Source: Actinoplanes lobatus
GTDB lineage: Bacteria > Actinomycetota > Actinomycetes > Mycobacteriales > Micromonosporaceae
Length of the DNA stretch: 64,000 nt
Reading direction: 5' to 3'
Assembly (NCBI RefSeq): GCF_014205215.1
Contig: NZ_JACHNC010000001.1
Location: forward strand, 8,304,501-8,368,500
Shown here: positions 4,971-20,195 of the stretch, in pieces
Layout of the letters: each line of letters opens with the position of its first letter
Numbering within the stretch: position 1 is the first letter of the stretch
Translations under genes and position numbers: made by a program
The notes under the pieces: model-generated
What the model saw: only the letters and a program-made list of their open reading frames with translations
What the model was told of the DNA's origin: nothing
Databases searched by the model: none

Positions 4971-6386
4971 TCACAGGCGGCTGAGCAGGAGGCGGGTGTC
5001 GGTTTTGCCGTTCGGGGTGACCGGAATCGAGGGGACCTGGCGGATCGTGTCAGGGACGGCGTAGGGCGGGAGGACGGCGGCCAGGCGGCTGCGCAGCCAG
5101 GCCGGGCCGCTGCCGGGTGGGGCCGTGTAGAAGAGGGCCAGCTTCTCGTACGTGCCGGGGCGGGCTCCGGGCACCGGGACGACCACGCACTGTTTGACCT
5201 GGCCGATGCCGCTGGTGACCGCCTCGATCTCGGACGGCTCGATGCGGTGGCCACGGATCTTGACCTGGCGATCGGCGCGCCCACGGAAGTGCAGCACCCC
5301 GTCATCATCGAGAAGACCCAGGTCACCGGTACGGTAGAGCGCGTTCCGAAAGCGCTCGGCGGTGGCCCCGGGGTCGCCGAGGTAGCCCAGCGCCAGCCCG
5401 GCCCCGCCGATGTGGATCTCGCCGTCGATCAGCTCGATCGTGGTGTCCGGAACCGGGCGGCCGAGTGGAATCCCGTCCGGCCGGTCCACGTCGGCCGCGA
5501 CGATCGGGTGGTAGGTCGCGAAGACGCAGGTCTCGACCGGCCCGTACCCGTTGGCGAGAACGGTCTCCGGGAACCGCCGCAGGAACCGGCCGATGTGTGG
5601 CGGTGACAGGCGTTCGCCGCCGGTGAGCACGTGGCCGAGGCCGGTGAAGCAGTCCGGCTCCAGGTCGACGAAGAGGTTGAACAGCGACGCGGTCAGCCAG
5701 GCGGTGTTCACGCCGTGGGCGGTGACGAGCTGGTGCAGCACGTGCGGCAGCAGGTGGTCGTCGGGGGCGACGACGACCGTTCCGCCGGTGGTGAGCGGGC
5801 CCCACAGTTCGAGGTTGAACGCGTCCCAGGCCGCCGGCGACGACTGGCACATCACGGTGCCGGGGCCGAAGGAGAGCGGTCCCCCGGCGGCGAACAGCCG
5901 GGTGGTGGCGCGGTGCGGGGACACCACGCCCTTGGGCACGCCGGTGGTGCCGGAGGTGAAGAAGACGCAGGCCGGGTCGTCGGCGGTGCCGTCGACCGGG
6001 GGTGGCCGCTCCCCCAGCGCCGCCCATTCGGACAGATCATGGGAGAACGGATTCCAGCCGGACGGGCCGGCGACCACCGGCGGGTCGAGGGCTTCCAGGA
6101 GCAGGCCGACGCGGTCCGGGGGCCATCGCGGGTCGAGAGCCGCGTACGCCGCACCGGTCTTCAGAACGGCGAGCAGTGTCATCACGAGGTGGGCGCCGCG
6201 GGGCAGGCGTACCGCCACGAAGGTTCCCGGGCCGGCGCCGTGCCGGGCCAGGTCGGCGGCGGCGGACTCGGCGGCCGCGTCGAGGGTGCGGTAGTCCACC
6301 GCGACACCCCGGTCGATCACCGCGACGGCGTCCGGGCGTTCCACGGCACGCGCGGCGACCTGCTTGTTGATCATGTGGTGCGGCAT
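4971..6386 (-). CDS. Stand-alone amino-acid adenylation enzyme (NRPS A domain)
   Basis: This 471-residue protein activates an amino acid as its AMP ester. Core motifs are in order: 'VFFTSGTTGVPKGVVSPH' (A3), 'AWDAFNLELWGPL' (A4), 'NGYGPVETCVFATYHP' (A5), 'YRTGDLG' (A7), 'GRADRQVKIRGHRIEPSEIE' (A8) and the A10 lysine in 'TPNGKTDTR'. The Asp in A4 matches the residue that binds the alpha-amino group, so an amino acid is likely; the full specificity code cannot be read safely by eye. There is no carrier domain, so it presumably loads the carrier protein at 13863-14918. ATG 6386 has a GGGAG ribosome site. It is divergent from the regulator gene over only 18 bp. Confidence 0.92.
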   Translation of the reverse strand: MPHHMINKQVAARAVERPDAVAVIDRGVAVDYRTLDAAAESAAADLARHGAGPGTFVAVRLPRGAHLVMTLLAVLKTGAAYAALDPRWPPDRVGLLLEALDPPVVAGPSGWNPFSHDLSEWAALGERPPPVDGTADDPACVFFTSGTTGVPKGVVSPHRATTRLFAAGGPLSFGPGTVMCQSSPAAWDAFNLELWGPLTTGGTVVVAPDDHLLPHVLHQLVTAHGVNTAWLTASLFNLFVDLEPDCFTGLGHVLTGGERLSPPHIGRFLRRFPETVLANGYGPVETCVFATYHPIVAADVDRPDGIPLGRPVPDTTIELIDGEIHIGGAGLALGYLGDPGATAERFRNALYRTGDLGLLDDDGVLHFRGRADRQVKIRGHRIEPSEIEAVTSGIGQVKQCVVVPVPGARPGTYEKLALFYTAPPGSGPAWLRSRLAAVLPPYAVPDTIRQVPSIPVTPNGKTDTRLLLSRL

Positions 6387-6404
6387 TTAACACTCCCGTG
6401 ATTA

Positions 6405-18750: not shown

Positions 18751-20195
18751 CCGGACCCTCACCGCTGCGCGGGTCGAACGGCATCGCGTTCGGCCCGGAC
18801 GGGCTGCTGTACGTGGCCGAATTCCTGGCCGGGCGGATCCGCACGGTCGACGTGCACACCGGCGAGGTGTCGGTGCTGGTCGGCGCGGACGGTCCGTTGC
18901 AGTCCCCCGACGACCTGGCGTTCGACGCCGACGGCAACCTGTACGTCGTCGACCTGGCGCCCGGCCTGGTGTGGCGGCGTACCCCGGCCGGCGACCTGAG
19001 CGTGGTGGCCGAGGGCATCCGCAACCCCAACGGCATCTGCTGCCTCGGCAACCGGCTGTTCGTCAACGAGATGGCCTTCGCCGGCCGGGTGCTGGAGATC
19101 GGCGCCGGCGAGCCGGCCGTGCTGGCCGAGGGCCTGATGCTCGGCAACGCCATGCAGGCCGGCCCGGACGGCAACCTCTACTTCCCGCACATGTTCCCGG
19201 GCTCGGTCCACCGGGTCGGCCCCGACGGTGGCGAACCGGAGCTGTTCGCCGACGAACTGCCACAGACCGTGGCCGTCCGCTTCGACCGCAACGGCGTCCT
19301 GCACGTGCTGCTCGTCGACGAGAACGGCACCGTCGTGCGCATCGACGGCGACCGGCGGACCACGATCGCGACCGGGGTGCCCGGCCTGGACAACGCGGCC
19401 TTCTCCGGCGACAACCGGATGTTCGTGTCCAGTTTCGCCACCGCCGGGATCACCGAGGTGCTGCCGGACGGGACCACCCGTGAGATCGTGCCGCACGGCT
19501 TCGTGGGCCCCTATGACGTGGCGGTCGACGACGCCGGGAAGGTGCACACCGCCGACCACTACCGGATCGACCGGGCGCTGCTGCCGTTCGCGCACGGCCT
19601 GGCCGCCGCCGGTGACCAGCTGCATTTCACCTCGCAGTACGGCCAGACCGGAACCTACGACCGGATCTCCGGGTCACTGCGCATGCGCGAGGTCGCCTTG
19701 AATCACCCTCTCGGCATCGCGGTACGCCCGGACGGCGCCGTGGTGATCGCCGAGTCCGGCGCCGGCCGCGTCCTGGCGATCACCGTCGACGACACGGTAG
19801 AGGTGCTGGCCGAAGGCCTGGGCCGCCCGGCCGGCGTCGCGGTCGACGCGGACGGCCGCTGTTACGTCAGCGACGAGGAAAACGGCACGGTCCTCCGCTT
19901 CGAGGACGGCAAACCGGTCGCCGTGGCCGAAGGCCTGTCCGCCCCGCAGGGCCTGGCCATCGCCGACGGCCGCCCGGTGGTCGTCGAATCGGGCCGCCGC
20001 CGCCTGCTCGCCCTCGGTCCCGACCAGCGGACACTGGCCTCGGACCTGCCGGTCGTACCACCCCGCGACCCGCAGCCGGCTCTCATGGTCCACGACCTGC
20101 CCGGTGTCCCCCGCCCCTTCGCCGGCCTGGCCACCGCCCCGGACGGCACCCTCTACCTGGCCGGCAACGCCGACGGCAGCATCCTCCGCTTCTAG
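18738..20195 (+). CDS. NHL/SMP-30-like beta-propeller protein
   Basis: The 485-residue product is built of repeated beta-propeller blades with the form 'PDGLLYVAEFLAGRIRTVD', 'DADGNLYVVDLAPGLVWR' and 'DADGRCYVSDEENGTVLRF'. This resembles gluconolactonase/SMP-30, Vgb and NHL proteins, possibly two propellers fused. SMP-30-like enzymes hydrolyse lactones, and a lactone is what a Baeyer-Villiger monooxygenase makes, so the pair may act in sequence; this is inference. GTG 18738 overlaps the monooxygenase gene by 13 bp. No signal peptide is seen. Confidence 0.85.
   Translation: MERLTGPSPLRGSNGIAFGPDGLLYVAEFLAGRIRTVDVHTGEVSVLVGADGPLQSPDDLAFDADGNLYVVDLAPGLVWRRTPAGDLSVVAEGIRNPNGICCLGNRLFVNEMAFAGRVLEIGAGEPAVLAEGLMLGNAMQAGPDGNLYFPHMFPGSVHRVGPDGGEPELFADELPQTVAVRFDRNGVLHVLLVDENGTVVRIDGDRRTTIATGVPGLDNAAFSGDNRMFVSSFATAGITEVLPDGTTREIVPHGFVGPYDVAVDDAGKVHTADHYRIDRALLPFAHGLAAAGDQLHFTSQYGQTGTYDRISGSLRMREVALNHPLGIAVRPDGAVVIAESGAGRVLAITVDDTVEVLAEGLGRPAGVAVDADGRCYVSDEENGTVLRFEDGKPVAVAEGLSAPQGLAIADGRPVVVESGRRRLLALGPDQRTLASDLPVVPPRDPQPALMVHDLPGVPRPFAGLATAPDGTLYLAGNADGSILRF

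Follow-up and report, generated by a model that had tools for sequence, protein, structure and literature searches.

According to the available part of the published account (PMC6050322), the HemN-like enzyme C10P of the CC-1065 pathway is a methylenetransferase that acts on an sp2 carbon, and TbtI, NosN and ChuW are regarded as enzymes of the same type. In the TVG pathway, which leads to a ribosomally synthesized and post-translationally modified peptide (RiPP), TvgB makes cyclopropylglycine from valine, as stated in the part of that paper available (PMC9062424). Here we describe a gene cluster in a 64,000-nucleotide stretch of the Actinoplanes lobatus genome (10.4 Mb), the whole of which is called the window below. 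In this cluster, a HemN-like radical S-adenosylmethionine (SAM) enzyme is encoded together with a stand-alone adenylation (A) domain, a carrier protein-thioesterase (PCP-TE) and an ATP-grasp ligase. The cluster belongs to a conserved and rare family that is apparently undescribed so far.

The radical SAM enzyme of the window (rSAM) shares with C10P, NosN, TbtI and ChuW a HemN-type domain with the CxxxCxxC motif, as far as the available part of the source describes them (PMC6050322). By the same source, C10P has the methyltransferase C10Q as its partner; the operon of the window also holds a SAM methyltransferase, a gene present in each of the 14 clusters of this kind, which we call type-A loci. 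The rSAM differs from the HemN-like class C methylenetransferases in constituting a distinct family, with about 481 residues and 22 homologues that are 51-82% identical to the window's protein, and in being paired with a TrmO-like enzyme. Its NCBIfam scores (HutW, 140 bits; HemW, 120 bits) are both under the equivalog cut-offs and mark it as a relative of HutW, HemW and HemN, and its relatives in the PDB are HemN (1olt, matched only over residues 46-253) and NocN (9p2u). The CxxxCxxC motif, CNYICHFC in the window, is present in all 14 full-length type-A rows. The TrmO-like protein has the PF01980 domain of the TrmO tRNA methyltransferases and structure matches to UPF0066/TrmO entries (1xqb, 7btu and 2nv4), but it comprises only 151 residues, corresponding to the N-terminal TrmO domain, scores below the cut-off of the TrmO equivalog TIGR00104 (80.4 against 93.25 bits) and lies in a biosynthetic operon. 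Another likeness is to the BacD-type L-amino acid ligase pathways, in which an ATP-grasp gene also stands beside an exporter gene. The match to the BacD model is 55.5 bits, far under the cut-off of 850, and the window differs from these pathways by its A domain, its carrier and its several SAM enzymes.

The gene set is real and narrower than first reported, extending from 4971 to 16755 and consisting of the A domain, a divergent LuxR-type regulator and one tight nine-gene operon. The operon runs on the minus strand from 16755 down to 7700, with gene families assigned by Pfam and NCBIfam profiles. It begins with an alpha/beta hydrolase (16105..16755; PF00561, 37 bits; TTG start in this reading) and an exporter of the major facilitator superfamily (MFS; 14915..16111; PF07690, 101 bits), followed by the PCP-TE (13863..14918; PF00550 and PF00975), the TrmO-like SAM methyltransferase (13411..13866; PF01980, 88 bits) and the rSAM (11952..13397; PF04055). 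Then come a cystathionine gamma-synthase-like (CGS-like) protein without the pyridoxal phosphate (PLP) lysine (10987..11952; PF01053, 149 bits), a tandem OsmC-like protein (10022..10990; PF02566, 32.5 bits, residues 58-140), a SAM methyltransferase of the Methyltransf_25/11 type (9289..10032; PF13649, 69 bits) and, as the last gene, the ATP-grasp ligase, which resembles L-amino acid ligases (7700..9232; PF02655, 33.7 bits). Neighboring genes overlap by 1-11 bp at six junctions, a gap of 13 bp precedes the rSAM gene, and the ATP-grasp start used, a GTG at 9232, is 56 bp past the methyltransferase stop. Beyond the ATP-grasp end lie the LuxR-type gene (6405..7733, plus strand; PF00196, 28.6 bits; start uncertain), with a homologue in the same place in the Actinoplanes locus L045, and the A domain from which it diverges (4971..6386, minus strand; PF00501, 205 bits, and PF13193). 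Scanning the genes of the cluster with Pfam gave no match to a condensation domain. A sequence-only reading of the window had recognized a minimal carrier-based system without a condensation domain, coupled to the HemN-like, TrmO-like, methyltransferase, CGS-like and OsmC-like genes, and this description is supported. It did not include the hydrolase, the regulator, the ligase exchange seen in Streptacidiphilus or the connection of the rSAM and the TrmO-like enzyme with a RiPP-like family, the last two of which are described below.

A profile built from 23 rSAM homologues led to 35 loci from named genomes. The 14 type-A loci (the window, L001-L008, L045/L046 from another Actinoplanes and L062-L065 from a Streptomyces sample) belong to Actinoplanes, Streptacidiphilus and Streptomyces. 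All of them hold nine genes, namely those for the A domain, methyltransferase, OsmC-like protein, CGS-like protein, rSAM, TrmO-like enzyme, PCP-TE, MFS exporter and hydrolase, so that the co-occurrence in other genomes that had been suggested as a check is found among loci retrieved through the rSAM. The ATP-grasp gene is present in 13 of the 14, the exception being L002 from Streptacidiphilus. A fifteenth locus, the fragment L030, spans 4.6 kb and holds a partial rSAM, the A domain, the methyltransferase and a CGS-like open reading frame (ORF). A single 541-residue ORF spans both the CGS and the OsmC places there and matches the CGS profile, not the OsmC profile; a fusion of the two is not claimed. 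The rSAM of the window is 98% identical to a protein of Actinoplanes capillaceus and 99% to that of Actinoplanes flavus (L001), and the enzyme is found in 3 of 67 Actinoplanes genomes (E <= 1e-60). It occurs in 1 of the 394 genomes of a class sample, the window's own, and in 10 of 392 Streptomyces genomes, eight of them with the type-A enzyme (79-81% identity) and two with the RiPP type (59-60%). The type-A gene set is a conserved but rare cluster family. Among the full-text literature matches listed, no paper describes the gene set or its chemistry in its title or the start of its abstract, which agrees with the earlier statement that no described pathway has this combination.

The specificity code of the A domain was taken from the alignment and reads DALWLGGVFK in the window, DALW(L/V/Y/F/I/H)GGVFK in all 14 type-A rows (L007 without the last position) and DVLWFGGVF- in the fragment L030. 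In the available part of PMC12283262, DALWIGGTFK is given as a valine code; the window's code matches it at 8 of 10 positions and that of L045 at 9 of 10. Because of this closeness, the predicted substrate of the A domain is likely a valine-like residue. The A3, A5 and A7 motifs are present in the A domains of the window and of L001-L008, L030 deviating at A3, and the PCP-TE has the carrier motif GGHSLL and the thioesterase motif GYSMGG in 14 of 14 rows.

The role of the ligase is illuminated by L002. Within the 18 kb of this locus examined there is no ATP-grasp match; in the ligase's place, the methyltransferase is followed by a PCP-condensation protein and by another, second A domain. The aligned code positions of this second A domain read DFWNIGMVHK, which is among the threonine codes in the available part of PMC12283262. 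That a condensation/threonine module replaces the ligase here is the strongest indication that the ATP-grasp ligase, by analogy, probably links a second amino acid through an amide bond.

A heavy use of SAM by the cluster is visible in its gene content and surroundings. Apart from the window and L001, every type-A locus (12 of 14) carries a second TrmO-like gene, which in L002, L045 and L063 is fused to a domain akin to the tautomerase-fold protein found in the RiPP-type cassettes; a search of the window's whole genome with the fused protein found only the TrmO-like gene of the operon. A metK gene adjoins the cluster in the Streptomyces loci L004, L006, L008, L064 and L065, whose genomes carry two or three metK genes, and L002 has a metK fragment at its edge. 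L045 alone has a nucleosidase-type gene (PF01048) beside the cluster.

The rSAM also leads to 26 other loci, from five phyla, all of which match the rSAM and the TrmO-like gene (the rSAM match being partial in L034 and L035). These loci further contain a SPASM radical SAM gene (23 of 26), a small hydrolase (22), a tautomerase-like protein (25) and a UbiE-type methyltransferase (20). The predicted model of the tautomerase-like protein (predicted local distance difference test, pLDDT, of 89) has structure matches of the MIF/4-OT type, with a best E of 7e-9, and its Pro2 is invariant in 8 rows. A small precursor-like ORF adjoins the SPASM or the HemN-like gene in 21 of the 26 loci (L009-L025, L028, L029, L031 and L032), with a segment such as RIHLEPGQEGVTLSAVGAAS in Streptomyces, RIHMDLSADDGITLAMVGAAT in Photorhabdus or RIHLDKPKEGIVLAANGAG in Peribacillus. 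Motif searches missed L010, L011, L020, L021 and L028, which were found by direct reading, and L009, which was found motif-free; L027 has a doubtful candidate only, L034 a remnant, and in L026, L033 and L035 none was seen. The phyla with a precursor are Actinomycetota, Bacillota and Pseudomonadota, where the core is often [V/I]-[T/S/V]-L, the Bacteroidota locus having the doubtful candidate and the Myxococcota locus none. The five core strings of the precursor-like peptides that were searched for were not found in the collection of full texts covered, and no title among the literature matches listed names a family with the HemN/SPASM/RiPP combination. Judging from the gene layout, these loci apparently constitute an undescribed RiPP family. 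As to the rSAM genes of Photorhabdus, that of P. thracensis (L023) has an internal stop, P. akhurstii and P. caribbeanensis (L034, L035) give the partial matches, and the frame is open in Photorhabdus sp. CRCIA-P01 (L032).

The comparison with the TVG pathway relies on its description in the available part of PMC9062424. Most of the RiPP-type relatives (23 of 26) resemble it in having a SPASM gene, and their core likewise holds valines, and a valine-like substrate is predicted in the window as well. They differ in having a GVTLAMVGAAS-like core rather than TVGG repeats and in their extra HemN-like, TrmO-like and tautomerase genes. The window's own cluster differs from the TVG pathway in that it has no SPASM enzyme and that no precursor was found, the motif searches covering 26 kb of the window.

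In a tree of 50 rSAM rows, ten type-A rows fall inside a supported group of 14 (Shimodaira-Hasegawa-like approximate likelihood ratio test, SH-aLRT, 97), together with four proteins of unknown context, and the group joins the Photorhabdus/Caballeronia RiPP branch (SH-aLRT 96). Both branches have two extra residues inserted behind the GGGTxALL segment, in agreement with the tree. The tree was built by a quick search, has SH-aLRT values as its only support and leaves out the partial L030, L034 and L035; a single, very long outgroup branch sets its root, which is therefore weak, and the direction of change is not given by it. We tentatively consider that one tailoring module, made of the HemN-like rSAM, the TrmO-like enzyme and mostly the MIF/4-OT-fold tautomerase, may serve both a ribosomal precursor and, in the clade of the window, an enzyme-made equivalent composed of a valine-like and a threonine-like residue. 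On this view, the nonribosomal branch would have taken over a RiPP tailoring module, with the A domain, carrier and ligase replacing the peptide gene and the SPASM gene. This idea seems to us more doubtful than not.

The word degenerate, used in the sequence-only reading, suits two proteins of the operon, which are retained all the same. The CGS-like protein still has the VDNT segment, the lysine of PDB entry 6k1l aligns to a proline, and the PLP-binding lysine is absent from its site in 15 of 15 rows. In the OsmC-like protein, PF02566 covers part of the first half and the OsmC-family entry 2opl matches weakly in the second, at residues 221-284 (E 0.007); OsmC structures lead the Foldseek list of its predicted model (mean pLDDT 72), at low scores, with a best E of 0.024. 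No cysteine column is common to all 14 rows of the alignment (A2), and the most shared columns (11/14 and 10/14) exclude the window's row. The cysteine segment of 2opl falls in a gap of the HMMER alignment, the exact site (ALAAD/ALAAE) being judged by eye. In Caballeronia (L022, 12252-13436) and Photorhabdus (L023, ~13829), CGS-family genes with the SMTK/SLTK lysine motif lie close to the RiPP-type rSAM, on the other strand.

Between the window and L001, the ratio of nonsynonymous to synonymous substitution rates (dN/dS) is 0.06 for the rSAM, 0.07 for the methyltransferase, 0.08 for the PCP-TE, 0.13 for the A domain and 0.16 for the hydrolase. The values for the TrmO-like, OsmC-like, CGS-like, MFS and ATP-grasp genes are 0.23, 0.27, 0.28, 0.33 and 0.40, respectively. 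The columns for L045 and L006 are rough owing to saturation, and the LuxR rows (L001, L045 and L006) were dropped as invalid, with one codon aligned or a wrong frame. The CGS-like and OsmC-like proteins are thus retained under purifying selection, being less constrained than the rSAM, methyltransferase, PCP-TE and A domain. In-frame tandem repeats occur in the window at 6558-6842, 7761-7956 and 8946-9066 and in L001 at 12867-13126, with periods of 39, 18, 42 and 36 bp. They lie in the LuxR-type and ATP-grasp genes of the window and, in L001, also in the OsmC-like gene. These repeats of the A. flavus lineage differ between the window and L001 and are absent from those genes in L045.

It is about an even chance, in our view, that the cluster makes a small exported amino-acid conjugate, most likely a dipeptide-like one. 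In the pathway that we infer, the lone A domain would activate a valine-like amino acid and load it onto the carrier of the PCP-TE, where SAM-based tailoring, led by the HemN-like enzyme, would take place. The thioesterase would release the product, and the ligase would join it to a second amino acid, threonine or a similar one by analogy; the MFS protein would serve in export and the divergent LuxR-type gene in control. A PCP-TE and a lone A domain suffice to make and release one tailored residue, the family scores of the ATP-grasp protein are weak, and ATP-grasp enzymes ligate many partners. The product could then be a single modified amino acid (or an ester or lactone), with the ATP-grasp protein acting elsewhere, for instance protecting the producer or ligating to a sugar, a polyamine or a carrier instead of an amino acid. 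We consider this unlikely, as the condensation domain and the threonine-code A domain that stand in the ligase's place in L002 point to an amide with an amino acid. Since the rSAM, the TrmO-like enzyme and, in relatives, the tautomerase are common with loci holding a precursor-like ORF, the cluster could also be a RiPP pathway with a precursor that is unrecognized or located elsewhere, the A domain and ligase adding a residue to the peptide end. As a control, the small ORFs of 12 RiPP-type loci were searched all against all without a motif; this yielded the precursor family only, in 7 of 10 holders (missing L010, L025 and L028), so the absence of a precursor from type-A loci is likely and not certain. 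The same search on nine type-A stretches from four lineages, which covered the stretches at the loci, with ORFs overlapping known genes excluded, found nothing conserved, and no SPASM gene was matched in any type-A locus. We hold a RiPP product to be quite improbable. The repeats, the missing tautomerase and second TrmO-like gene, and the dN/dS of the ATP-grasp gene, which is the highest of the valid rows, might suggest that the gene set is decaying or non-functional in the window's lineage; with open frames, dN/dS well under 1 and catalytic motifs kept, we hold this to be very unlikely.

Several observations weigh against the dipeptide-like conjugate and its proposed route. Every locus was found via the rSAM, so the co-occurrence is conditional on it, and several of the Streptomyces type-A rows are close relatives of each other. 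None of the listed valine codes is identical with the A-domain code, which is variable at position 299 (L, V, Y, F, I and H). The ATP-grasp protein reaches 22 bits with LAL_C2, below the cut-off of 29.4, being above the cut-off for ATP-grasp_3, and the substrate of the ligase is not readable from its sequence; the threonine code is known from a single locus. At their loci, the window and L001 are without the tautomerase and the second TrmO of their relatives, which in the case of the window's genome holds genome-wide, and the pathway may be shortened here. Nor do the metK counts give a clean split: the window's genome (G000) has two and G022 three, none of them at the cluster, and the complete genomes G815, G778 and G027, which have the cluster without metK beside it, hold one each. 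Finally, neither valine nor the RiPP core has an obvious sp2 side-chain carbon for a HemN-like methylenetransferase, so that one has to assume either an oxidation beforehand or an enol/enamine form, for which a tautomerase would be suited; this assumption is the weakest link of the mechanism.

The sequence-only reading had included the next two genes, a PtlE-like Baeyer-Villiger monooxygenase (16984-18750) and an NHL propeller (18738-20195). We rejected both as members: the cluster ends at 16755, and the two genes form a pair of their own that is widespread in Actinoplanes genomes lacking the cluster. The monooxygenase is present in 33 of 67 Actinoplanes genomes (E <= 1e-150), of which only 3 hold the rSAM; in one of these three, G027, it lies 5 Mb away from the cluster. 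The propeller adjoins the monooxygenase in 4 of 4 rSAM-free genomes viewed (L041-L044), and among the 14 type-A loci the two are found within the stretch examined only in the window and L001. On the left side, a flavin adenine dinucleotide (FAD) oxidoreductase (3537-4910) and an aldo/keto reductase adjoin the cluster in the window and L001, with no match in L045, and they are kept out of it as well. The dN/dS of the monooxygenase (0.23), the propeller (0.24) and the FAD oxidoreductase (0.18) between the window and L001 are in the same range as those of the cluster genes, and hence these values support function, not cluster membership.

Farther along the window, the region 46001-54000 has a GC content of 0.62-0.65, against about 0.70 in the rest, and is possibly an acquired stretch. 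From 366 bases past the right end of the window (G000:C1:8368866-8391769), A-domain matches are found in large nonribosomal peptide synthetase genes whose open frames comprise 1086 and 6943 residues. Two repeat arrays with a period of 120 bp (2833-3244 and 53051-53314) have the phrase GCCGATGTTGTTGAG in common, which is usual in tetratricopeptide-type genes.

The type-A loci present a conserved cluster family in which several SAM chemistries are combined with two conserved pseudo-enzymes. The replacement of the ligase by a condensation module is a natural experiment that predicts the second building block, and the rSAM leads to an apparently undescribed RiPP family. If it is true that ribosomal and nonribosomal routes share these tailoring enzymes, the substrate of an enzyme would be readable from a genetically encoded peptide.

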